Below are positions 26,177-37,883 of a stretch of 64,000 bases of DNA, piece by piece (within the stretch, counting starts at the first letter, position 1; each line of letters starts with the position of its first letter). The notes under the pieces are model-generated. The model was not told where the DNA came from, ran no database searches, and was given only the letters and a program-made list of their open reading frames with translations. This DNA is from Nitrospira sp. (GTDB lineage Bacteria; Nitrospirota; Nitrospiria; Nitrospirales; Nitrospiraceae). Location of the stretch: contig CP126122.1 in assembly GCA_030123565.1 (NCBI GenBank), positions 124,001-188,000 of the forward strand, in the 5' to 3' direction. The position numbers were made by a program, and so were the translations under genes.

Positions 26177-26695
26177 TCATCCGTGCTCTCCGCGTTTTCC
26201 CGCCATCAGCGGTTGTTTCAACACCCACATCTCATAGAGCGGAATCGCCATCATGATGAGGAAGCCCACCGTCATGAAGGTGTCACCTGTGAGCATGGTC
26301 AAGACGAAAATGGGAGAGACATAGCTGATCAACCATGGCGACAGCAAGTCAAGAATAACCCCGCCGAACGAGATCCAGGTTGTGGCCACCTTCAGTCGGT
26401 TGCTCACATTGGTGAGATAGAGCACATGCACCAGGATGATGAACACAACGGGCATCGTAAACAGGTGGAAGTGGGTGATCTCGGCGAGTTCGCGGAAGGA
26501 CATCGGCTCCCCGAATGTCGCATTGGAACCTCGGTAGTGATCGGCGATTCCTTGCGGGGACAGGCCTGTCATGCTGTGAGCCCAAAAGAAGGAGAAGGTA
26601 AAGCCCGCCAGCATCAAAAAGAGAAAAAACGTGTAGACCAACCGGATATGGCGATCCGAGTCGCGGAGGCGAAAGCGAGTATTGAAGTTGCGCAT
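26177..26695 (-). CDS. Four-helix membrane protein beside the FMN-binding protein
   Basis: 172 residues with four membrane helices (about 20-40, 76-94, 105-125 and 130-152). Histidines lie at or near helix ends: His40 in FFWAHS, His75 and His77 in THFHLFTMP, and His90 in ILVHVLYL. The spacing of His77 and His90 within the second helix could allow haem or quinone-site chemistry, but no family signature is certain. It begins 12 bases after the FMN-binding gene, so I infer it is the membrane partner that feeds electrons to, or receives them from, the flavin protein. Function otherwise unknown. Confidence 0.75.
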   Translation of the reverse strand: MRNFNTRFRLRDSDRHIRLVYTFFLFLMLAGFTFSFFWAHSMTGLSPQGIADHYRGSNATFGEPMSFRELAEITHFHLFTMPVVFIILVHVLYLTNVSNRLKVATTWISFGGVILDLLSPWLISYVSPIFVLTMLTGDTFMTVGFLIMMAIPLYEMWVLKQPLMAGKRGEHG

Positions 26696-26707
26696 GTCCG
26701 GCGGGAC

Positions 26708-27397
26708 TCAGTTCCCGAAAATCGAGCTGAAGAACCCCTTCTCTGATTTGCGGGCGGCCGCACTGTCGCTGCCGAGTCCGATCGGCTTCAAATAGAATTC
26801 ATCGACGAGCACCAAGACCCGTTTAATTCCGGCGGTCATGGAACGGACCGACATCGTGGCGCCGCTGATGTTGATGATGTCCTTATTGATGCGCACTGGA
26901 TCCAAGACGGATTTGCCTTCATATTGGACGTTGAATCGTTTGGTCCGCACCTCGCTGCCGCGCGCTTCTCGAAAGACGAGGAGTTCGACATTTGAGACGA
27001 ACCCCTGAGCATCCACGCCGACCATGTAAGTCATGGGTTTGTGTTTGCCGATGGTATTCTGTATGAAGGCGTAGCCATCGACCTGCGAAGCGGTTTCTCC
27101 GATATAGACTTCAAAGGAGTCCTCGGGAAATTTCCAGCCGATGCGGCTCTCGACGACGGCCTTTTTGTCCATGGGGACTCGAAGAAGTTCCTTCCTGATA
27201 CGCTCGGATTTCGGGAACATCAGTTTGACCGCTTCTTCCTCGGTCAGAAAGACCTCGGCCATCGTCATTTCTTGCTCCGTCAGATAGCGTTTGAGTTCAC
27301 TATCCCATATACGTTCGGCCCAGGCCGTGACCGGGGATATGGTGAAGGCGAACAGCAGCAGCAGAAGAGGCGATCGAGGGATCATGTCGGTAAGCAT
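26708..27397 (-). CDS. Exported FMN-binding domain protein with flavinylation motif
   Basis: 229 residues. Signal peptide to about residue 27 (LLLLLFAFTISPVTAWAE). The C-terminal FMN-binding domain (about 95-215) carries DIINISGATMSVRSMTAG, where SGAT (178-181) is the motif on which ApbE attaches FMN to Thr181 through a phosphoester bond. An ApbE gene lies 3 kb away at 30493. It is therefore predicted to be a periplasmic, covalently flavinylated electron carrier. Start ATG 27397 has AAGGA six bases upstream and overlaps the lipoprotein stop; ATG 27385 is also possible. Confidence 0.87.
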   Translation of the reverse strand: MLTDMIPRSPLLLLLFAFTISPVTAWAERIWDSELKRYLTEQEMTMAEVFLTEEEAVKLMFPKSERIRKELLRVPMDKKAVVESRIGWKFPEDSFEVYIGETASQVDGYAFIQNTIGKHKPMTYMVGVDAQGFVSNVELLVFREARGSEVRTKRFNVQYEGKSVLDPVRINKDIINISGATMSVRSMTAGIKRVLVLVDEFYLKPIGLGSDSAAARKSEKGFFSSIFGN

Positions 27398-27855
27398 CCT
27401 TGTTCCTTTAACCTTGCATTGATGCGATCAACAACCTCATTAGTCGTGTCTTGCGATGGTTCTGCAGGCCACCATTTGGTGGCCTGTGTTGTTACGCCAC
27501 CGCGCGCATGCCATCGTTGCCTGGTCTCCAATACGCTCACCGTCGCCACATCGTTCATTCGTTTGACGGCAACGCTCATGCGCGCGCGTTCTCGATTCCC
27601 GAAGCCTTCGCGCGCGAAGATTCCGAAGGATCGTTCCGTGAGAGGTGCGACATCCATCCAGCCTGTCTCGATCAGGCCCGCCCCTTTGTCGGAGGCAGTG
27701 ATGGATTGTCCTTTCATGGTATCGAGTGCGGCATTCCAGACGGTGTCATAGGGACAAACATAATATTGCTCCCGGCTGCCGCTCAGGGAGGCGCACCCTG
27801 CCGTGGAGAGGAGGATGAGCGCTGCCATTGTTGTACGTGAGATCAACACGATCAA
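27382..27855 (-). CDS. Lipoprotein of unknown function
   Basis: 157 residues with a lipoprotein signal (MAALILLSTAGCASLSGS, lipobox Cys about residue 21). The mature part YYVCPYDTVWNAALDTMKGQSITASDKGAGLIETGWMDV resembles small periplasmic or outer-membrane lipoproteins with a Bet-v-like fold, but I do not recognise a named family. It overlaps the FMN-binding gene by 16 bases. It is co-transcribed with the porin, so it may help the envelope assembly of the flavin module. Confidence 0.75.
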   Translation of the reverse strand: MIVLISRTTMAALILLSTAGCASLSGSREQYYVCPYDTVWNAALDTMKGQSITASDKGAGLIETGWMDVAPLTERSFGIFAREGFGNRERARMSVAVKRMNDVATVSVLETRQRWHARGGVTTQATKWWPAEPSQDTTNEVVDRINARLKEQGCLPT

Positions 27856-27914
27856 AACCGCCCCTTCTAGTTCACGGCGATCCCTCTCGGAGAGAAGGAT
27901 CGCCTCTGTTCAGG

Positions 27915-29396
27915 TTAGAAATATGTGGCAGCTGACAGCACAAGAGCACCGTCGTGAATCCGCTCCCCGGTGTTCGGGTTGAAGGCCTTCGGCAGGTACT
28001 GGTAGCTGATCTTGAAGACAGCGTCCTCGACCGGACGATAGTTCAGGCCGAAGGAAATTTGCTCCATGTCGCCGAATCCTCCAGTTTTGTTATCTCGGTT
28101 CGTGTCAACCCTGTCATAACGAATGACAGCGGTAAAGGTCGAACCTTCGCCGAACCGTTTCGGCGAGAGTTTGGTCAGGAATGCCGGCATGAAATGATAG
28201 TTGGCCTGGATATAGTAGCCATTCATGCGTTGAGGGGGAATCCCTAAGCCGCCGTTTCCCGAAATTCCAGTCAATAAAGATCCGGGAGTAAGGCCCAGAG
28301 TATTGGTTTGAATCGCTCGCGAGTTTCCTCTTGCATAGGCCCAGGCGGCTTCTCCGATCAGCTCGAACGGACCACGTTGGAACGTCCAGTCTATAGCGGA
28401 GATACTGAGGGAGTTGTAATTACCATTGGGAGCAGAATTGCCATAGTAGCTTGATCCGGCTACTTCCATTCCGAGCATCGGGCTGAAGGCCACGCGACCT
28501 ATCACTGCTTTCCCGTTATTAATGTCTAACCCGTCATCGGATGCGCATTTCCGTTGGCGGGTGTTCCGTGTGCCGTTTTCTTCGCTGATCCGTGGGGAGC
28601 CGTCCGAATTGTATCCACAAGGACCGGTCGTCACGTAAAATTCATAATCCAGTTTGCTCGTACGGCCTGGATAGAGAGTGCCATAAAACCCCGCCCCGGT
28701 CTCAGCCATCGTCGAAGGGATGATCAACTGGCTGACAAGCGGCCGGTCGGTCAAGTCGTTCAACGGCGAATCGTGCAGCAAGTTGAATTTGCCTAGGGGC
28801 ATGAGTATGATTCCTGCCCTGATGTTGAACGGTTCGTTCACGAGATAGTCGATAGTCGCGAACTCCAGGCTGATCTCGTTGTCGCTGGTTTCTCGGATTC
28901 CATGCTCGATCTCGATCTCAGAAGCAAACTTCACATGCTCGGTAATGTCCGCGTAAATGAAAGGGACGAATCGCTGCTGGTCGAACCCGTTGGTGCCTCC
29001 GCCGTACCCGTTCTCAATGCTGGCCTGCCGTTGCGCGCGATATTGGATGTCCATATAACCGCCGACGATGGCCTTCGGAGCCGCAACAAATGGTTTGGCG
29101 TAAACCAGTCGTCCTGATCCTGTGGCGCCGAAGGATAAAGGAATTTTTTCTTCACCGGGCCGCTCGACACGGATATCCGTCATCGCCCCAGTGGCTGTAG
29201 GATACTGAACGCCTGGGGATGGCGCTTCTTCCCTTCGTTCGGCACCTCCTTCATGTCGTTCGCGTTCCTGCAATCGCTTCTCCACCGCTTCGTCGACCAA
29301 CTTCTTGATATCCTCCGGGGTCATGTTTTCCGCCAACGCCGGCATGGCCGGTAGGCTGGCTAGGACCAGTGCCCCGAGGAGTGCCCGCATCTTCAT
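27915..29396 (-). CDS. Outer-membrane porin
   Basis: About 493 residues with a signal peptide (MKMRALLGALVLASLPAMPALAE). A short charged coiled-coil segment follows (EDIKKLVDEAVEKRLQERERHE), of the kind found in outer-membrane channels that contact peptidoglycan. The rest is a beta-barrel of alternating aromatic strands ending in LVLSAATYF with the C-terminal Phe used by the barrel assembly machinery. It resembles phosphate-selective or general porins; the substrate is unknown. Start ATG 29396 has GGAGG upstream. It lies in the minus-strand operon with the FMN-binding protein, under a Fur-like box. Confidence 0.85.
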   Translation of the reverse strand: MKMRALLGALVLASLPAMPALAENMTPEDIKKLVDEAVEKRLQERERHEGGAERREEAPSPGVQYPTATGAMTDIRVERPGEEKIPLSFGATGSGRLVYAKPFVAAPKAIVGGYMDIQYRAQRQASIENGYGGGTNGFDQQRFVPFIYADITEHVKFASEIEIEHGIRETSDNEISLEFATIDYLVNEPFNIRAGIILMPLGKFNLLHDSPLNDLTDRPLVSQLIIPSTMAETGAGFYGTLYPGRTSKLDYEFYVTTGPCGYNSDGSPRISEENGTRNTRQRKCASDDGLDINNGKAVIGRVAFSPMLGMEVAGSSYYGNSAPNGNYNSLSISAIDWTFQRGPFELIGEAAWAYARGNSRAIQTNTLGLTPGSLLTGISGNGGLGIPPQRMNGYYIQANYHFMPAFLTKLSPKRFGEGSTFTAVIRYDRVDTNRDNKTGGFGDMEQISFGLNYRPVEDAVFKISYQYLPKAFNPNTGERIHDGALVLSAATYF

Positions 29397-29530
29397 GGGT
29401 ATCCTCCATCCACGAGTAAGGTTAAGGTTTGACTCGGGACTCAAGGGTCTCTGGTCTGTAGAAAACGTACGTATGGGAAATCAAAACCCTGGATTGTTGC
29501 CGGCGACGAGGCCTCCTTTCACAAAAAGAA

Positions 29531-29710
29531 TCATGTCGTGACGGTGCCCCAGCCCTCGATTGACGTGAAGGGGATCACGACGATGCGTTTGCACCGTTTG
29601 CATTTCAGCTCAAGGCCTTGTCCTCGGACCTTGGCAATGAGTTGCCCGCATTCGCAGCGAGTCTCACTACTCTGGCAAGAAGGGGACAGCGGAGTCTTGC
29701 TGGCGATCAT
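29531..29710 (-). CDS. Small Com-like zinc-ribbon protein
   Basis: 59 residues, ATG at 29708-29710 on the minus strand and TGA at 29531-29533. It contains RCECGQLIAKVRGQGLELKC then KRCKRIVVI, a CxC...CxxC zinc ribbon resembling the Com translational regulator of Mu-like phages and short stand-alone relatives. It is the first gene of the minus-strand porin/flavin operon, 37 bases downstream of a Fur-like box. The Shine-Dalgarno sequence is weak. It may be an RNA- or metal-binding regulator of the operon; that is inference. Confidence 0.65.
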   Translation of the reverse strand: MIASKTPLSPSCQSSETRCECGQLIAKVRGQGLELKCKRCKRIVVIPFTSIEGWGTVTT

Positions 29711-29745
29711 AATGGCCGGATAGAAACGGATATAGTTTGATGAAA

Positions 29746-29762
29746 TTGAGAACGATTATTAG
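29746..29762. promoter_or_regulatory. Fur-like box between porin operon and lipoprotein-apbE operon
   Basis: TTGAGAACGATTATTAG. The 7-1-7 reading TGAGAAC-G-ATTATTA (29747-29761) matches the Fur consensus TGATAAT-n-ATTATCA at 11 of 14 positions. The site lies in the divergent intergenic region and could control both directions. Confidence 0.65.
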
Positions 29763-29846
29763 TATCTCGGTAGCAGTCGGAATGTCAAGTCTGATGTTGG
29801 CCAAAATTTCAGCCGCTACTGAGATGCATTCCCGCCCCCGCTTCCC

Positions 29847-29852
29847 TATAAT
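29847..29852 (+). promoter_or_regulatory. Perfect -10 immediately upstream of the lipoprotein start
   Basis: TATAAT at 29847-29852 with only a weak -35 near 29823. The expected transcription start, about 29859, is the A of the ATG, which predicts a leaderless or nearly leaderless mRNA. Confidence 0.5.
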
Positions 29853-29858
29853 TTGTTC

Positions 29859-30482
29859 ATGGTGCGACGTTTTCCGCGGCCGCTCTGTCTCTTGGGGATG
29901 GCATTGACGTTGTGCATTGGTTTGTCGGGATGCCTCACGGAAGCGCCGACGGTCGTTCAACCGGAAGACGGCCGGATGGTTCTCGTCGCCGGCCGTGCGA
30001 TTGCCGTGATCACCGGGGAGCGGGCTCGGAAATATGGGCCTGAGGTTCGTCGGGTGGAATTGCTGCAAAGTCAGACAGGCGTCCGATACAGTGTGATGAT
30101 CGGTGGAGACAATCAGACGTTTGCGTTTTTTCTTCCCGTCGGAGAGTACGAAGTCACGCGGGTGCAAATTAATGAAGGGCCGTTTCTGTCGATCGCCCAA
30201 CTGGCGTCTTCGTTTTCGATCGGAGGTGAATCCATTGCCTATCTGGGAACGTGGCGATTCGGGGTCGATTCGCCGCGTTATGGGCGTATGGTACTCGTCT
30301 CGATGGTTGCCGATGATGAATTGCGGCCGCTGATCGAAGAGACGATCAGAGCACAGTATCCTGCGTTTGCGTCGGAAGCCCTGACGACGGTCGTTCCGCT
30401 CCCGGCAGAAACCATGACTCGGCTCTATGAAGTCCTGCCGTATCCTCGATACCCAAAGTATTTTCAGCGCCATGTCTGGTAG
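29859..30482 (+). CDS. Lipoprotein upstream of apbE
   Basis: 207 residues with a lipoprotein signal (PLCLLGMALTLCIGLSGC, Cys about residue 25). The mature domain is mostly beta strand (RMVLVAGRAIAVITGERARKYGP...GVRYSVMIGGDNQTFAFFLPVGEYEVTRVQINEG), resembling carboxypeptidase-regulatory-like or DUF2846-type beta-sandwich lipoproteins. No named function. It is directly followed by apbE, so it belongs to the flavin module. TTG 29853 is an alternative start; I prefer ATG 29859 because the -10 ends at 29852. Confidence 0.75.
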   Translation: MVRRFPRPLCLLGMALTLCIGLSGCLTEAPTVVQPEDGRMVLVAGRAIAVITGERARKYGPEVRRVELLQSQTGVRYSVMIGGDNQTFAFFLPVGEYEVTRVQINEGPFLSIAQLASSFSIGGESIAYLGTWRFGVDSPRYGRMVLVSMVADDELRPLIEETIRAQYPAFASEALTTVVPLPAETMTRLYEVLPYPRYPKYFQRHVW

Positions 30483-30492
30483 AGGTCGTCTC

Positions 30493-31527
30493 ATGGGGAT
30501 GCGGTATCGAGCTGCCATCCTAGGATGGTTCTTCATCATTCTGCTGTTTGGGGTGGGTTGTGCGGGGGGAGGTTCTCAGCTTATTCCCGTCGCTGTAAAG
30601 CGGACGCAGATGCAGATGGGGACGCTGGTGACCATCACGTCCGTTGCGCCGGATCGAAAGGTGGCCCAAGCAGCGGCCTCAGCGGGATTTCAAGAAATCA
30701 ATCGTTTGGAAAAATTGCTCAGCACGTGGATCGCATCCAGCGAACTCTCACTCGTCAATGCAGCGGCCGGCAGGGAAGCCGTCGCCATCAGCCCCGATAC
30801 GATGGGCGTCTTGGAGGCCTCGATCGAGGTGGCCGGGCTGACGGAGGGAGGCTTCAATATCCTCGTGGGGCCGGCGGTCGAGGCCTGGAGCGTCTTGGAC
30901 CGGCAACAAATCCCGTCGGACGGGGACTTGCAGGCGGCTCGTTCCTTGACGGACCTGACGGCGCTCCACCTGAATAAATCGCAGGGAACGGCCTATTTGG
31001 CCAAGCGGGGCATGCGGGTGGATGTCGGCGGCATCGGCAAGGGGTTTGCCGCGGACAAGGCCGTAGAGGCGATGCAACGGGCCGGGGCAACCGCAGGGGT
31101 CGTGGCCCTATCGGGAGACATAAGGACGTTCGGTCAATTGCCGGGCGGTACGAAATTTCCCTTCGGTATCCGGCATCCACGGCGAGAGGAAGCGGTGCTG
31201 GCCTATGTCGATCTTCAGGATGAGGCGATTTCGACCGCGGGAGATTATGAACGGTATTTCGAGCGCGACGGAGTGCGATACCACCACATCCTTGACCCCT
31301 TGACGTTGCAGCCGGCGCGTGACTGCCAAAGTGTCACGGTGGTGGCTCGCGATGGGGTGACTGCCGATGGATTGGATACCGGGATCTTCGTGATGGGCCG
31401 AGAGCGAGGACTGGCGTTGATCGAACGGTTGCCGGGGGTAGGAGCCGTCATCGTGGATCGTGACGGCAAGGTCTGGATTTCCTCCTCTCTCAAGGGGAGG
31501 GTCCGGATAAACGACGGCAATGAATAA
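30493..31527 (+). CDS. apbE: FAD:protein FMN transferase ApbE (lipoprotein)
   Basis: 344 residues with a lipoprotein signal (WFFIILLFGVGCAGG). The ApbE core shows MQMGTLVTITSVAP, EINRLEKLLSTWIASSELSLVN, FNILVGPAVEAW, VDVGGIGKGFAADKAVEAM, GVVALSGDIRTFG, AISTAGDYERYF, HHILDPLTLQPAR and ADGLDTGIFVMG. It transfers FMN from FAD to a Thr in exported proteins; the obvious local substrate is the SGAT protein at 26708-27397. The frame extends upstream into the preceding gene, but AGAGG six bases before ATG 30493 sets the start. Its end lies 27 bases from the convergent tonB. Confidence 0.95.
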   Translation: MGMRYRAAILGWFFIILLFGVGCAGGGSQLIPVAVKRTQMQMGTLVTITSVAPDRKVAQAAASAGFQEINRLEKLLSTWIASSELSLVNAAAGREAVAISPDTMGVLEASIEVAGLTEGGFNILVGPAVEAWSVLDRQQIPSDGDLQAARSLTDLTALHLNKSQGTAYLAKRGMRVDVGGIGKGFAADKAVEAMQRAGATAGVVALSGDIRTFGQLPGGTKFPFGIRHPRREEAVLAYVDLQDEAISTAGDYERYFERDGVRYHHILDPLTLQPARDCQSVTVVARDGVTADGLDTGIFVMGRERGLALIERLPGVGAVIVDRDGKVWISSSLKGRVRINDGNE

Positions 31528-31554: not shown

Positions 31555-32502
31555 TTATCGAGCCAGTCGATAGCTGATGGGAATCTGAATCGTCATCGAG
31601 GATTTCTCGAGCGGTTGCGACAGTGCGAGCGGTGAAGCCTGTTGGAGGGTTGTCAGCGCCGCCTGGTCCAGTACGTCATGGCCGGAACTTTTGGCGACCG
31701 CGAGGGAGGTAATGTGTCCGTCTTCTTCGATCACGATCCGCACGACGACACGCCCTTCCAGACGATCCAGCCTGGCCGCAGCGGGATATTGTTTCAGTGC
31801 TTCAATCCTGCGTAGCAGGCTGTCTGCGAGCCACCCATAGTCCGGTTTCCCGGCAACCGGAGGCGCGGTGGTCGAGGGAGTGAGCGATGCCGTTTGGGCC
31901 GGAACCATTGCGCTCTGAGGCGTTTCCTGTGGGGCGAGTGAAGGGGGCGGTGTCTCGGACGCGGGAAGCGCCTCAGCCAAGGAGGAAACCGGCGTCGGCA
32001 GTGGAGGATGAGATTCGGCGGGCGTTTCCACAGGCGACGAGGTCCTTTGGTGTTGGAGGATTTGTTCGCCGGTCGATTCCGGCGATGGGGGGACAGGAAC
32101 AGTACGAAGGTGCTCAAGATCAGGCTTGGCCTCTTGGGTGTGCGAGGTAAAGACTGAGTCGGCAATCTGGTGCGGAGTCGTTATGGGGGACGCGTCCGCA
32201 GGCGGTGCCTGGAGACGAGGGCTGTGTGTCGAGCTGGCCGGAACGCTGCGCTGAGCAGGTCTTGCGATTTTCGAAGGTCCGATCGACGTATTGGGGAGTG
32301 CCGGCCGTATCGGCGAAGGATTGTCAGGGCCGACGACCGTCACATCCCAATGAAAGGGGTATGTCGAGGGTGCCAGGCCGATCTTGGCCGCGAAGAGTCC
32401 GGCCAGGAAGAGGGCGCCGGCGTGCAGACAGAGCGAGACGATCCATCCGCTTGTACGTAGGCGGAGAAATTCGCCGGGCAGGCCAACAGGGCGGGCGGTC
32501 AC
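31555..32502 (-). CDS. tonB: TonB-type energy-transducing protein
   Basis: 315 residues. One N-terminal membrane helix (about 19-40, IVSLCLHAGALFLAGLFAA), a long Pro/Ser/Thr-rich periplasmic spacer (about 60-225) and a C-terminal TonB domain (YPAAARLDRLEGRVVVRIVIEEDGHITSLAVAKSSGHDVLDQAAL). With ExbB and ExbD it would transmit the proton gradient to outer-membrane receptors. TolA-like use is less likely, since the C-terminal domain is of the TonB family. It overlaps exbD by four bases. No TonB-dependent receptor is in the window. Confidence 0.88.
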   Translation of the reverse strand: MTARPVGLPGEFLRLRTSGWIVSLCLHAGALFLAGLFAAKIGLAPSTYPFHWDVTVVGPDNPSPIRPALPNTSIGPSKIARPAQRSVPASSTHSPRLQAPPADASPITTPHQIADSVFTSHTQEAKPDLEHLRTVPVPPSPESTGEQILQHQRTSSPVETPAESHPPLPTPVSSLAEALPASETPPPSLAPQETPQSAMVPAQTASLTPSTTAPPVAGKPDYGWLADSLLRRIEALKQYPAAARLDRLEGRVVVRIVIEEDGHITSLAVAKSSGHDVLDQAALTTLQQASPLALSQPLEKSSMTIQIPISYRLAR

Positions 32503-32873
32503 AGCCGTACGACCTCCAGGCTGACGGACTGAAATCCCAAGCCGCGGATTTCATCCACGACTGAGACGAACCGTTCCAGCAAGGTGACTTTGTCGGCGCG
32601 CACGACGACTAATGATTCGCGCGGGTGCGCCAGCAGGACGGTCTTGAGTCCGTCCGCCGGAACGGGCTTATCATTCAGGAACAGGTCGCCGTTTGCCGTC
32701 AGGGTGACGACCACCGGCACGTCTTTACGATCCCCGGCCTCCTTCGCCTTCGCGAGATTCACCGGTATCTGGCCGGTGCTGATGAACGTCGCGGTGGTGA
32801 GGACGATGACCAGCAGCACCAGCATCACGTCCACCAACGGAATCACATTGATCTGATTGACTTCACGTTCCAT
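32499..32873 (-). CDS. exbD: ExbD/TolR-family protein
   Basis: 124 residues with one membrane helix. The conserved membrane aspartate is in NVIPLVDVMLVLLVIVLTTATF (Asp about residue 14). Periplasmic part: KDVPVVVTLTANGDLFLNDKPVPADGL...VVRADKVTLLERFVSVVDEIRGLGFQSVSLEV. It partners ExbB in a proton-driven motor. It overlaps exbB by 11 bases and tonB by four. Confidence 0.93.
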   Translation of the reverse strand: MEREVNQINVIPLVDVMLVLLVIVLTTATFISTGQIPVNLAKAKEAGDRKDVPVVVTLTANGDLFLNDKPVPADGLKTVLLAHPRESLVVVRADKVTLLERFVSVVDEIRGLGFQSVSLEVVRL

Positions 32874-33288
32874 GTTGGGTCCTGTACGTGGTCAGGAGTT
32901 CCGCCACGCGGCGGCGTAACACGTTGTTCATGACGACGCAGGGAATGGCGACGAGCAAACCGACGGCGGTCGCCTTCAACGCCAAGCTCAAGCCGATCAT
33001 GATGGTATTGACGGCCATGGTGCCGGAGGTTCCCATCGTGTGGAAGGTCATCATGATCCCCAGGACGGTGCCCAGGAGGCCGATATAGGGCGCATTGGCT
33101 GCGACCGTGCCGATGATGACCAGTCGTTTCGTCAAGGCCATTTCAAAGGTTTGCGCGTCGGTGAATTGCGAGAGATCCACACGCCGATAGTAGAGCCACC
33201 GTTCGACCGCGACCGCCACCGACCACACGCTCAATGCGACCAGCAAGCCGATGATTCCATATTCAACCGCATTTTTCAGCGCGTCCAT
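32863..33288 (-). CDS. exbB: ExbB/TolQ-family proton channel (short)
   Basis: About 141 residues, shorter than E. coli ExbB. Three membrane helices; the MotA/TolQ/ExbB signature GTVAANAPYIGLLGTVLGIMMTFHTMG and ALKATAVGLLVAIPCVVMNNVL are present. Start ATG 33288 has GGAGG about nine bases upstream; the frame is open to a GTG at 33303. It is the first gene of exbB-exbD-tonB. The 130-base gap to fbpC shows no obvious Fur box. Confidence 0.92.
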   Translation of the reverse strand: MDALKNAVEYGIIGLLVALSVWSVAVAVERWLYYRRVDLSQFTDAQTFEMALTKRLVIIGTVAANAPYIGLLGTVLGIMMTFHTMGTSGTMAVNTIMIGLSLALKATAVGLLVAIPCVVMNNVLRRRVAELLTTYRTQHGT

Positions 33289-33418
33289 TCGTCGATCCTC
33301 CACCTTTCACTGTTGGTTCCTTGCGCGAAGCAACTGCATTGATCTCGTCTTGCCGTCGAGGTCTGCGCCGCACGGTCATGGGGCCTGAGCACCTCCACGG
33401 GCCGCCTCTGTACCCCGT

Positions 33419-34555
33419 TCATGGCCATGGTTGTTGAGGGAACAACACCGTATGGGTCGCCACCACTCGCAGGGCAATCGCCGTTCCCACCTGATAGATG
33501 CTTGAGGACGATTCGCTGCTGTGCAGGATTTGTCCGGAGGGGAGTTGGATCGTATAGACATTCTCGGACCCTTTAAATTGCCTGCCTAGAATGTGGGCAG
33601 CGGCCCCCTTGGCCGGTGTGATGTGGATGTCGTCGGGGCGAATCATCACGACCACCTTCGTGCCGGAGGGAAGATGTTGCAGATTCGGGAATTCACCGAT
33701 TTCGGTGACGACGAGGTCGTTCGTCACGACGCCGGAGATGAAGTCCGCCTGCCCGACGAAATCGGCGACGAAGGGCGTGGTCGGCAGGTGGTAGATGGCT
33801 TCGGGCGTATCGAATTGTTCGAGCCTGCCGTGGTTCAAGACCGCGACACGGTCCGCCATGGCGAAGGCTTCATCGTGGTCATGGGTGACGAGAATCGCCG
33901 TCGTTTTGGTTTGCCGGAGCAGCTCATGGAGATCTTGCCGCATACGGCAAGCCATGTCGGGATCGAGGTTGCTGAAGGGTTCATCGAGCAACAGCAGCAC
34001 CGGACGCGGGGCAAGCGCCCGAGCAAGCGCCACACGTTGCTGTTGGCCGCCGGACAACTCGTGGGGGTACCGCTGTTCCAAACCACGTAACCCGGTGAGC
34101 GTGAGGAGATCATCGATGACGGCCTTCTGTTGAGTCCGTGGCAGATGGCTGAGGCCGAAGGCGATGTTTTTCTCGACCCGCAAATGCGGAAACAAGGCGT
34201 ATTCCTGAAAGACCATACCGATGTGCCGCTGTTCCGTCGGGATCGTCGTGTCCCTCGAAGAGACGAGTTGTCCGGAGAGCGCGATGCTGCCGGCAATGAC
34301 CCGCTCGAATCCTGCGATCGCTCGAAGGATGGTGGTCTTGCCGCATCCGGACGGGCCAAGGAGGCAGAGGATTTCCCCCTGCTGGACCGTGAACGTGATC
34401 TGTTCGACGGCCGGCTTATTCGGTTCGTAGGCACAGGAGACCTCGCGCAGTTCGAGGACGGGCGATCGCGCAGCGGCGAGATCGACGGTGTCGGGCGTCG
34501 TGGAGGCAGTCTGGGACTGCTGTTCGTCGGTTTTCACTCGATTCACGGAATTCAC
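33419..34555 (-). CDS. fbpC: Ferric iron ABC transporter ATPase
   Basis: 378 residues. ABC domain with Walker A LLGPSGCGKTTIL, Q-loop MVFQEYALFPHL, signature LSGGQQQRVALARAL, Walker B VLLLLDEPFSNLD and H-loop LVTHDHDEAFAM. A C-terminal TOBE-like regulatory domain follows (VVMIRPDDIHITPAKG). This is the layout of FbpC/PotA-type importers, and the fused permease and binding protein upstream fix it as the ferric type. Start GTG 34555 overlaps the permease stop and has AGGAGG upstream. Confidence 0.9.
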   Translation of the reverse strand: MNSVNRVKTDEQQSQTASTTPDTVDLAAARSPVLELREVSCAYEPNKPAVEQITFTVQQGEILCLLGPSGCGKTTILRAIAGFERVIAGSIALSGQLVSSRDTTIPTEQRHIGMVFQEYALFPHLRVEKNIAFGLSHLPRTQQKAVIDDLLTLTGLRGLEQRYPHELSGGQQQRVALARALAPRPVLLLLDEPFSNLDPDMACRMRQDLHELLRQTKTTAILVTHDHDEAFAMADRVAVLNHGRLEQFDTPEAIYHLPTTPFVADFVGQADFISGVVTNDLVVTEIGEFPNLQHLPSGTKVVVMIRPDDIHITPAKGAAAHILGRQFKGSENVYTIQLPSGQILHSSESSSSIYQVGTAIALRVVATHTVLFPQQPWP

Positions 34556-36156
34556 GTGACGACCTCCTGATGACGCCCTCGCCAATCCTTCGACACCAGC
34601 AGCATCAGTGCCGGAAGACTCAGTAAGACGATCAGCAGGGCGGAAGGCGCCGCCAACTGGTAATACTCCTCACTGGCCTCCAGCCAGACGCGAATCGCCA
34701 GTGTATCAAATCCCACGGGCCGCAACAGCAAGGTGGCTGGAAGTTCCTTCATGATCTGGAGAAACATCAAGACCCATGCGGCAATGAAGCCGTTTTGAAT
34801 GAGCGGGAGGGTCACCCGCCGGAGCATGCGCCGCGTCGTACAGCCCAAGGTTCGCGCCACCTCCTCTACATTGGGGGTGACCTGCTGCAGGGCCGGCTCC
34901 ATGGATTGCAGTCCCACCGGGAGGAAATGCAGGACATAGGCGACGAGCAACACGACTATTGAGCCGTACAAGACAGGCGCGAAATGGGTGAAGAGCACAA
35001 GGACCGCGAGGGCGGCGACCGGACCGGGCAGGGCGTAGCCGGCATAGGCGGCTTGGAGACAGGCGATGTTGAGGCGCGAGGGGCGGCGGCTGGCGAGGTA
35101 GGCCAGCGGCAGGCCGATCAGGACGGCACCGCCGGCCGCCAGTGCGGAGAGAAAACTGCTGTTCCAGACGAAGCCGAAAAAACGCGCATCCAGCGCTCCT
35201 TGGGAAATGGCTGCGACGCTCCAATAGATCAACATGGCGGCCGGAATACCGAAGGCGGCGCCGAAGATCAGTACGACGTAGGTCATGATGAGCGCAGTTT
35301 TCAGGGCTCCTCCGCGATGCCTCGTCGATGTCCGGTATCGGCCGGAGGTTTGATAGAAGCGACTCCGCCGGCGGAACCACCGTTCCGTTACGAGAAAGAC
35401 GATCGCCATCACGACCAGCAGCAAGCTCAGAATGCCGGCGGCCGTCTGGTCGTAACGGCCGGTCATTTGCTGATAGACCGCATAGGTGAGGGTTTGGTAG
35501 CGCAGCAGGGACACGGCGCCGAAATCAGAGATGACATAGAGAATCACGAGCGCGAGCCCTGCGGCAATTGCGGGACGAATGAGCGGCAGGGTGATTCGCC
35601 GGAGTGTGATCCAGGGAGACATGCCGCAGGCACGGGCCACTTCTTCAAAGGAAACATTGAGATTCAGCAACGCGCTCCGCGCGAGCAGGTAGACGAAGGG
35701 AAAGGTGTCCAGGGCCATGACCATCGTCACGCCGGTGAAACTTTGGGGAGAGACCAACCGCGCTTCCGGACCCATGAGGGCCTGCCACCATTGCTCTGCT
35801 GGGCCACCCATGCCGAAAAGGTGGGCATAGACGTAGGCCAGCACGTACGTCGGCATGGCGAGGGGGAAGACCAGTGCCCATTCCCAGATTCGACGGCCGG
35901 GAAAGTCATAACGAACCATGATCCAAGCCAAGGACAGGCCGAGGATGAACGTGATCAAGGCCACGCTTGTGGCGAGTGAAAGGGTGTTCCACAGCAGCTC
36001 CGGGATGCGGGTGGACCAGAGGCGGCTCCATGAGGCCGGCGTAGCGGTGAGGGCCACATAGATGATGTAGCAGGTGGGCAACAACAGGAACACAGCGGTG
36101 ATCACGCTGACCCACTGCAACGGAGAAGGCGCGTTGAACCTCGTGGCTGTGACCAT
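34552..36156 (-). CDS. fbpB: Ferric iron ABC transporter permease (fused FbpB)
   Basis: 534 residues with about twelve membrane helices in two homologous halves. Each half has an ABC-permease EAA loop: EEVARACGMSPWITLRRITLPLIRPAIAAG in the first and EEVARTLGCTTRRMLRRVTLPLIQNGFIAA in the second. Such duplication is characteristic of ferric (FbpB/SfuB) permeases. It starts 15 bases after the binding-protein gene. Confidence 0.93.
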   Translation of the reverse strand: MVTATRFNAPSPLQWVSVITAVFLLLPTCYIIYVALTATPASWSRLWSTRIPELLWNTLSLATSVALITFILGLSLAWIMVRYDFPGRRIWEWALVFPLAMPTYVLAYVYAHLFGMGGPAEQWWQALMGPEARLVSPQSFTGVTMVMALDTFPFVYLLARSALLNLNVSFEEVARACGMSPWITLRRITLPLIRPAIAAGLALVILYVISDFGAVSLLRYQTLTYAVYQQMTGRYDQTAAGILSLLLVVMAIVFLVTERWFRRRSRFYQTSGRYRTSTRHRGGALKTALIMTYVVLIFGAAFGIPAAMLIYWSVAAISQGALDARFFGFVWNSSFLSALAAGGAVLIGLPLAYLASRRPSRLNIACLQAAYAGYALPGPVAALAVLVLFTHFAPVLYGSIVVLLVAYVLHFLPVGLQSMEPALQQVTPNVEEVARTLGCTTRRMLRRVTLPLIQNGFIAAWVLMFLQIMKELPATLLLRPVGFDTLAIRVWLEASEEYYQLAAPSALLIVLLSLPALMLLVSKDWRGRHQEVVT

Positions 36157-36170
36157 AGGTGCTGAAGAAT

Positions 36171-37202
36171 TTAACGCAGGCCGACTTGTTCGATGAGAGT
36201 CAGAGTCGGCTCGCGCAATTCGGCGAGTCGGGCCAACGGCACAAGCGCAGCGCGGAAGCTATGCCGGTCGATGAGCGCCGGATCGGCCTTCACGTCCGGA
36301 TGCAGCGGATACTCCTTATCAAGGTCGGCAAATAATTTCTGGCCGGCTTGAGCCACCAGGAATTCGATAAGGAGTTTCGCGCTCTCCACATGTTTGGAGG
36401 CACGGGTGACACCGATCCCCGCCACGTTCATGATCGCACCCATACCGCCTTCCTGTTGATCGGTCATGAGGGCCGCGATGGGCGCCGACGGCTGTGCTGC
36501 GAGATGCCGATAGATGTAGTAGTGGTTCACGAGTCCCACCGCGACCTGTCCCTTGGCCACGGCTTCCACGATCTGGGAGCTTTTCTGATACACCTGCGTG
36601 CCTGCGTTGGTCTTGAGGCCCTGGAGAAATTGTTTCGTGCGCTCGTCCCCGAACGTCGCCTTGATGACCGACACGCCAGCCTGCAGATACTCGCTGCCGG
36701 AGTTGGGAATGGCGAGTTTGTCCTTCCATTGGGGCTGGGCCAGGTCGAGCAGCGAGGTGATTTGATCGGGCTTCACCAGCTTCGTGTTGTAGACGACAAT
36801 CCAGAACCGGCCGGAGAGGCCGATCCAGCTGTTGTCGGGTGCGCGGAATTGCGGTGGAATGGCCCGTTCGACCTCCCGCATGTTCATGGGCCTGAGCAGC
36901 TTGAGTTCTCGTGCATGTTCAAGGCTGCCGGCATCGTTCGTCAGGAACACGTCGGCGGGCGTGTGGTCGCCTTCGGCCTTTAATCGGTTGACCAACTCGG
37001 TTGTTCCGGAAGACAGGAGCTCGATCTGAATACCGCTTTTCGATTGGAATTCGTCCAGCACCGGTTTGATGAGCCGCTCCGCGCGGCCGGAATATACAAT
37101 CAGCTTGTCGGCGGCGATTGCGGGAGTCGTAATGACGTACCAAAGGGCCAGTGTTCCGAGGACAAGAGTCAAAGCCAAAATTGCGCGAGGGGATGAAGCC
37201 AT
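36171..37202 (-). CDS. fbpA: Ferric iron-binding periplasmic protein
   Basis: About 343 residues. Signal peptide (ILALTLVLGTLALWYVITTPAIAAD) and an FbpA-type type II binding protein: LIVYSGRAERLIKPVLDEFQSKSGIQIELLSSGTTELVNRL, PADVFLTNDAGSLEHA, SGRFWIVVYNTKLV. The paired Tyr iron ligands are in GLVNHYYIYRHL. It delivers Fe(III) to FbpBC. Start ATG 37202 has GGAGG upstream; GTG 37217 is less likely. A Fur-like box lies 50 bases upstream. Confidence 0.93.
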   Translation of the reverse strand: MASSPRAILALTLVLGTLALWYVITTPAIAADKLIVYSGRAERLIKPVLDEFQSKSGIQIELLSSGTTELVNRLKAEGDHTPADVFLTNDAGSLEHARELKLLRPMNMREVERAIPPQFRAPDNSWIGLSGRFWIVVYNTKLVKPDQITSLLDLAQPQWKDKLAIPNSGSEYLQAGVSVIKATFGDERTKQFLQGLKTNAGTQVYQKSSQIVEAVAKGQVAVGLVNHYYIYRHLAAQPSAPIAALMTDQQEGGMGAIMNVAGIGVTRASKHVESAKLLIEFLVAQAGQKLFADLDKEYPLHPDVKADPALIDRHSFRAALVPLARLAELREPTLTLIEQVGLR

Positions 37203-37251
37203 GCGGCGTGCCTCCACGTCTTAGGACAGCCGACGGGCGTCCTAGTTGAAA

Positions 37252-37295: not shown

Positions 37296-37727
37296 TCAAT
37301 GACGGCAACGGGAACAGAGGCCGTACAGCTCAAGTCGGTGGGTTTGGATCACAAAGCCGTTCTTGGTCGCCACCTCCTCTTGCAACCGTTCGATCTCGCA
37401 ATTCTCGAACTCCACGATCGTTCCGCAGCCGGTACAGATGAGGTGATCGTGATGGCCCTTGTGAGACACGTTGTCATATTGAGTCTGGGAGCCGAAGTGC
37501 CGGGCTTGGGCGATGCCCGCTTCGCAAAATAGGTTTAACGTGCGGTAAATGGTGGCCAATCCCAGGTGTGGATCCTTCTTGGCGAGTTGGTGGTACATGG
37601 CCTCGGCCGTGACATGTTCCTGCCGTAAGAAGGCCGTCAGAATCAGTTCCCGCTGGCGGGTCAACTTGAGTTGATGCTTCGCCAGATGCTCGCGAAGCAC
37701 ATCCATTTCTTTGAGAGCTTTACTCAT
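37296..37727 (-). CDS. fur: Fur-family ferric uptake regulator
   Basis: About 143 residues. Winged-helix part LKLTRQRELILTAFLRQEHVTAEAMYHQLAKKDPHLGLATIYRTLNLFCEAGIA, then the dimerisation and metal domain with HHDHLICTGCGTIVEFE and CSRC, so both CxxC zinc pairs are present. The gene directly precedes fbpABC and there are Fur-like boxes nearby, so Fur (iron) rather than Zur or PerR is the best reading. The frame is open to 37757; I take the ATG at 37727 (MSKALKEMDVL). Confidence 0.92.
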   Translation of the reverse strand: MSKALKEMDVLREHLAKHQLKLTRQRELILTAFLRQEHVTAEAMYHQLAKKDPHLGLATIYRTLNLFCEAGIAQARHFGSQTQYDNVSHKGHHDHLICTGCGTIVEFENCEIERLQEEVATKNGFVIQTHRLELYGLCSRCRH

Positions 37728-37883
37728 GGCGCATGGATCGGCGTGAAAGAGGCTCATTAAAGACGAAAGTCCCTCGATGGGTCAAGGGGTGCGAAGAAAA
37801 AGCGGACGACCGTCGATTGACGAAGAGAAATCCCCCCGTCTATAGTCCTACCCGGCTGCAGAATATCGAAGGAGAGGCGGTGC

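Follow-up and report, generated by a model that had tools for sequence, protein, structure and literature searches.

A conserved flavinylation gene cluster with a predicted role in iron acquisition in Nitrospira

A connection between protein flavinylation and iron assimilation is already known from a survey published in 2021, in which the two were joined via gene clusters with PepSY, MsrQ or P19 (PMC8238504). The same survey reported some clusters that lack a recognised membrane electron donor and suggested that flavinylated carriers suit iron-poor settings, and a paper from 2024 added DUF4405 and FezC (PMC11334425). Furthermore, FpvG is described to free iron from pyoverdine by periplasmic reduction ahead of an ATP-binding cassette (ABC) importer (PMC6954188), and a similar role is given to HiuB/HiuC in Caulobacter, where the hiuABC operon is Fur-regulated (PMC13001220). 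Here we describe a gene set at positions 26177-31527 of a 64,000-nucleotide stretch of a Nitrospira sp. genome (contig CP126122.1; the whole stretch is called the window), which encodes an exported FMN_bind protein, the flavin transferase ApbE and a four-helix membrane protein, M4TM, next to the genes for the ferric importer FbpABC. In our opinion, this module is reasonably probable to be a Fur-repressed periplasmic electron-transfer chain for iron acquisition, which would reduce ferric chelates and thereby feed FbpABC. The first-pass annotation of this DNA had called it a candidate new system, which is overstated given the links published in 2021. Nevertheless, Nitrospira and porins are not named in the main texts of PMC8238504 and PMC11334425, and a full-text literature search yielded no paper linking flavinylation and Nitrospira. 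Compared to PMC8238504, the M4TM family, the porin/Fur/Fbp architecture and an ApbE-FMN_bind fusion linked by a twin-arginine translocation (Tat) signal look new.

The minus-strand operon has the order zinc ribbon, porin, lipoprotein A, FMN_bind protein and M4TM. Its first gene (29531-29710) encodes a zinc ribbon of 59 amino acids (aa) with CxC/CxxC in its translation, and its last gene (26177-26695) the 172-aa inner-membrane protein M4TM, which is proposed to donate electrons to the FMN protein. The exported FMN_bind protein (26708-27397; PF04205, 30.6 bits at a cut-off of 22) contains an SGAT motif and is predicted to carry covalent flavin mononucleotide (FMN) on Thr181. On the plus strand, a divergent operon is formed by the genes for lipoprotein B and ApbE, the FAD (flavin adenine dinucleotide):protein FMN transferase (open reading frame (ORF) 30427-31527; PF02424, 261 bits; probable start at 30493 or 30499), beyond which follow TonB-ExbD-ExbB, FbpC-B-A and a Fur-family gene. 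All genes named in the first-pass annotation were recovered at the positions it gave (ORFs, Pfam).

This arrangement resembles the PepSY- and MsrQ-like iron reductase clusters (PMC8238504), which also combine ApbE, an exported flavinylated protein and a small membrane protein with links to iron transport, and some of the PepSY clusters are likewise Fur-repressed. However, the Nitrospira locus contains M4TM, an OprO/P porin, a zinc ribbon and the ferric importer FbpABC, whereas the described clusters contain the ferrous transporter VIT1. The b-type cytochromes DUF4405 and FezC (PMC11334425) are comparable in that they are small, span the membrane with several helices, carry conserved histidines and are encoded beside ApbE or iron-storage genes. 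However, M4TM shows no DUF4405 match, and in M4TM an HxH motif and one further histidine take the place of the four central histidines. P19-FTR1 clusters (PMC8238504) likewise serve iron uptake, encode an FMN_bind protein and have no recognised membrane electron donor, but FTR1 is missing from the Nitrospira genome and its importer is FbpABC. FpvG/FpvH and FoxB/HiuB-HiuC share an inner-membrane reductase for periplasmic iron release that works with an ABC importer or a TonB receptor, and FpvG (PMC6954188) and HiuB (PMC13001220) thus provide a precedent for a periplasmic reductase beside an importer; a flavinylated carrier, ApbE and a porin are not described in the available parts of these papers.

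The same layout exists on proteobacterial plasmids, where clusters (L145, L147, L148, L149) encode an outer-membrane barrel or hypothetical protein, FMN_bind (32-42% identical), ApbE and a four-helix protein of 140-155 aa annotated as hypothetical. In contrast to the Nitrospira locus, four histidines are invariant in this membrane protein, profile comparison found no homology to M4TM, and neither a Fur box nor FbpABC was seen in these clusters. Therefore, the layout recurs with different membrane proteins in the donor slot.

The distribution of the module was surveyed in Nitrospirota and, in addition, on plasmids. Among 80 Nitrospira loci retrieved with M4TM as query, the conserved order is Fur-FbpABC-ExbBD-TonB-(ApbE, lipoprotein B)-zinc ribbon-porin-lipoprotein A-FMN_bind-M4TM. 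Gene counts were based on the 45 loci with long flanks and gave FMN_bind in 45, the porin and ApbE in 44 each, the zinc ribbon in 43 and FbpC in 41, the lower numbers for outer genes being partly due to the ends of the stretches. The core is also kept in a second family of the same order (L129-L136), where TonB-ExbBD is sometimes missing at that spot. Although M4TM shares only 22-36% identity in the deep families of class and phylum (L109-L119), it adjoins FMN_bind at all 11 loci there, usually together with porin, zinc ribbon and Fur genes and at several loci also with FbpB-FbpC. Joint presence and absence points in the same direction: among 79 genomes sampled from the family, FMN_bind occurs in each of the 65 that have M4TM, while of the 14 without M4TM, 10 lack FMN_bind and four have only another FMN_bind ORF of approximately 277 aa instead of the approximately 230 aa of the form paired with M4TM, although these counts come from related genomes and are non-independent events. 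Hence, the co-occurrence across Nitrospirota, proposed as a check in the first-pass annotation, holds from the genus via order and class to the phylum.

The module is predicted to be under Fur control from a conserved promoter. The Fur-like box GATACTAATAATCGTTCTC (29748-29766, minus strand) matches the Fur consensus at 15 of 19 positions, represents the best match on both strands of the window, and overlaps the operon promoter TTGACA-16-GATACT (29761-29788, minus strand), which was found by promoter scan and has its -10 element within the box. Upstream of the zinc ribbon gene, the 19 bases are near-invariant in 63 of 64 aligned Nitrospira loci (mean 14.8/19 compared to 10.7 for shuffled sequences). 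A -35 element matching at five or more of six positions lies upstream of 64 of 65 box copies, with a spacing of exactly 16 bp in 64; the resulting consensus TTGACA-16-GATAYT is of the sigma-70 type, and its spacer sequence varies. Of the 21 deeper loci whose operon head was readable, 19 have the locus-best Fur-like site at the head where 0.34 would be expected, the heads having been placed after gene maps and hits were seen (for L116, the head is fbpA), and the match reaches 18/19 in L119. Since both the box and the gene set recur well outside the genus, a chance match does not explain the box, and a regulation unrelated to iron, which would have spoken against the earlier proposal, finds no support at the level of sequence. 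A second Fur-like site in the genome (G000:C1:2606408) is located downstream of an exported flavodoxin-like gene near an nxrB-like copy; it is not clearly a promoter and was not used here. The flavodoxin-like protein encoded near this site and the nxrB-like gene has a signal peptide (L153:4257-4871; genome ~2606756-2607370).

A further line of evidence concerns the flavinylation itself. The SGAT motif occupies residues 178-181 of the FMN_bind protein (Thr codon 26855-26857), all 75 Nitrospira orthologues contain an [ST]GAT motif, and the deep relatives have SGAT or TGAT, with SGAS in one. The ApbE motifs DVGGIGKG and HILDP are conserved in the Nitrospira orthologues, and a start at ATG 30493 or 30499 yields a lipobox (VGC) and hence a lipoprotein signal. 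FMN_bind and ApbE are each the only member of their family in the single-contig genome of 4.62 Mb and are therefore the obvious partners of each other. The FMN_bind protein does not belong to Rnf/Nqr, since its similarity to RnfG is 22.4 bits relative to a curated cut-off of 205, and no Rnf/Nqr genes adjoin it among the window ORFs (Pfam). Moreover, ApbE and FMN_bind form a single open frame of approximately 500-600 aa adjoining M4TM in seven class-level loci, and the same join occurs at an eighth, which is ended by the contig end (together L109-L116, e.g., L112:8443-9966 and L116:10229-11755). In our view, this fusion strongly indicates that FMN_bind proteins of this type are the substrate of this ApbE, in agreement with the earlier expectation that ApbE attaches the FMN.

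All eight fusions contain a twin-arginine motif as well as a hydrophobic stretch between the two domains, e.g., SRRRFLKAASIAGLGLMMPG, and the ApbE half of most of them starts directly in the domain without a signal peptide. These features suggest that flavinylation in the deep relatives may occur in the cytoplasm, followed by Tat export; alternatively, internal translation re-initiation may account for the arrangement. An ApbE-target fusion is known from the trypanosomatid fumarate reductase and a cytosolic ApbE from Klebsiella; in the ApbE review from 2025, Tat is not mentioned. A third M4TM-like form of approximately 190-205 aa was found beside FMN_bind-like proteins (L122:3928-5110, L127:9474-10705), of which the one in L122 has lost the S/T-G-A-T motif.

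M4TM and 17 relatives gave no significant Pfam match, including PepSY, MsrQ (PF01794) and DUF4405, and M4TM found no match among NCBIfam models and PDB sequences. The AlphaFold model has helices at 15-43, 67-92, 99-122 and 128-158 and a predicted local distance difference test (pLDDT) score of 75.8; its fold search returned generic helix bundles only, with a best Z of 8.3 for vinculin tails and no Foldseek hit under E 0.5. The superfamily consists of two main branches, one of approximately 165-200 aa and one of approximately 240 aa, in which the segment connecting helices 1 and 2 contains a CxxCH heme-c motif. Tyr54, His75 and His77 are invariant in all 27 aligned members and Trp121 in 26, while Glu72 and His90 are additionally invariant throughout the FMN-linked branch. 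This pattern is compatible with a membrane protein that binds metal or takes part in redox reactions, and the CxxCH site of the relatives fits a redox role as well. According to the positive-inside rule, Tyr54 and the HxH motif would face the periplasm, where the FMN protein could dock near them. By inference, M4TM would act as an electron carrier; a heme in it is uncertain, because the four-histidine pattern is absent and His40 is not conserved in the deep relatives. Collectively, M4TM is a candidate for a new membrane electron-transfer family outside Pfam. Neither M4TM nor its c-heme relative was found in the plasmid search. The 240-aa branch occurs in varied redox neighbourhoods (L094-L100, L120-L126), L120 being near hydrogenase-like genes as judged from the ORF sequences only. 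A function of M4TM as FAD exporter was also considered and is disfavoured; M4TM is retained where ApbE is predicted to be cytoplasmic.

Regarding the outer genes, the OprO/P-type outer-membrane porin (27915-29444, minus strand) was assigned to Porin_O_P (PF07396, 24.5 bits at a cut-off of 20.9), whereas lipoprotein A (27382-27855, minus strand) has a weak DUF3576/BamC-like similarity with Pfam matches below threshold. The identities of both proteins covary among the Nitrospira loci (rho 0.79). They exist in two divergent types that switch together, with occasional duplicates or swapped order (e.g., L046, L061, L088, L090), while FMN_bind and M4TM stay constant. Lipoprotein B (29853-30482, plus strand) is a predicted beta-sandwich (AlphaFold pLDDT 81.7) with modest fold matches only (best Z 6.7).

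The neighbouring genes on the minus strand provide the link to iron: TonB, ExbD and ExbB (31555-33303; Pfam), the FbpC-FbpB-FbpA ABC importer (33419-37217; PDB matches of FbpA, synteny) and the Fur-family regulator (37296-37757; 102 bits to the NCBIfam Fur model, under its cut-off of 146). The best PDB matches of FbpA are ferric-binding proteins (7li0, E 2.7e-51), it has Tyr-Tyr at 233-234, and by sequence it is a member of the ferric-binding family. The genome encodes nine TonB-dependent receptors, while genome searches found no FeoB, Nramp or FTR1; therefore, FbpABC looks like the main recognised iron importer of this organism. Two FecCD-type permeases are also present, one of them near a receptor and possibly for cobalamin.

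Based on these data, the following scenario can be proposed. When iron becomes scarce, Fur would leave the shared regulatory region, which would switch on the operon from the zinc ribbon to M4TM and probably also the divergent lipoprotein-ApbE operon. ApbE would then put FMN on Thr181 of the exported FMN_bind protein, and M4TM would draw electrons from the membrane quinol pool and hand them to the flavin. The reduced FMN protein could in turn reduce periplasmic ferric chelates imported via TonB-dependent receptors and/or the porin, and the loosened iron would be brought into the cell by FbpABC. The iron link of the module is well supported by the conserved sequence features, and ferric reduction has moderate support, whereas we infer the covalent FMN, the function of M4TM as quinol-oxidising carrier (with heme b or another centre) and the roles of porin and lipoproteins.

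Several points weigh against this scenario. The module is missing from some Nitrospira genomes, and adjacency of TonB-ExbBD and FbpABC is not universal among deep relatives. Known cytochromes linked to flavinylation, such as DUF4405 and PepSY, have a four-histidine pattern that is absent from M4TM, and His40 of M4TM varies in deep relatives. FbpA binds Fe(III), so that prior reduction is not strictly needed, ferric chelates are a presumed electron acceptor, and the Porin_O_P family is more commonly associated with phosphate and anions.

A bolder version, which we regard as tentative, is that M4TM defines a new transmembrane electron-carrier family with FMN-linked and c-heme branches, which powers a Fur-controlled periplasmic ferric reductase throughout the phylum, and that fused ApbE in deep relatives performs cytoplasmic self-flavinylation prior to Tat export from the internal signal.

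Among explanations without ferric reduction, the flavin protein might replace iron-rich periplasmic cytochromes at low iron without reducing iron itself. The Fur-box control, the iron-free nature of a flavin protein and the suggested suitability of flavinylated carriers for iron-poor settings (PMC8238504) would agree with such a function, but the stable linkage to FbpABC, TonB and the porin indicates uptake and the cluster has no partner respiratory enzyme, which makes it unlikely. Slightly less likely still is a Fur-regulated module for another substrate, such as copper, manganese or a chelate with negative charge entering via the porin; here the Porin_O_P homology, the lack of identified iron ligand sites in the flavin and membrane proteins, and the proteobacterial analogues without Fur boxes, one of which adjoins multicopper oxidases, have to be set against the Fur and/or FbpBC genes accompanying the module across the phylum. 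An extracellular conduit, in which porin and FMN protein move electrons across the outer membrane for respiration, appears improbable: an outer-membrane barrel stands beside FMN_bind here as on the plasmids with ApbE and a different four-helix protein, but the FMN_bind protein has a single flavin site, is predicted to be periplasmic and lacks an outer-membrane anchor, the porin belongs to an ordinary family, and Fur-box control together with FbpABC linkage matches assimilation. Finally, an accidental neighbourhood of functionally unrelated genes is hardly credible, as it is contradicted by the conserved order, the joint presence and absence, the domain fusion and the conserved Fur-box promoter.

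Nitrospira are major and widespread nitrite oxidisers with iron-demanding enzymes, and they are hard to grow and manipulate. Judged from sequence, the cluster probably helps nitrite-oxidising Nitrospira to gain iron by reduction outside the cytoplasm, and the locus offers a concrete, testable iron-uptake route for these bacteria. The M4TM family and the ApbE-Tat-FMN_bind fusion are two features that merit bench work; the natural fusion of ApbE, Tat signal and target would, if true, shift flavinylation out of the periplasm.

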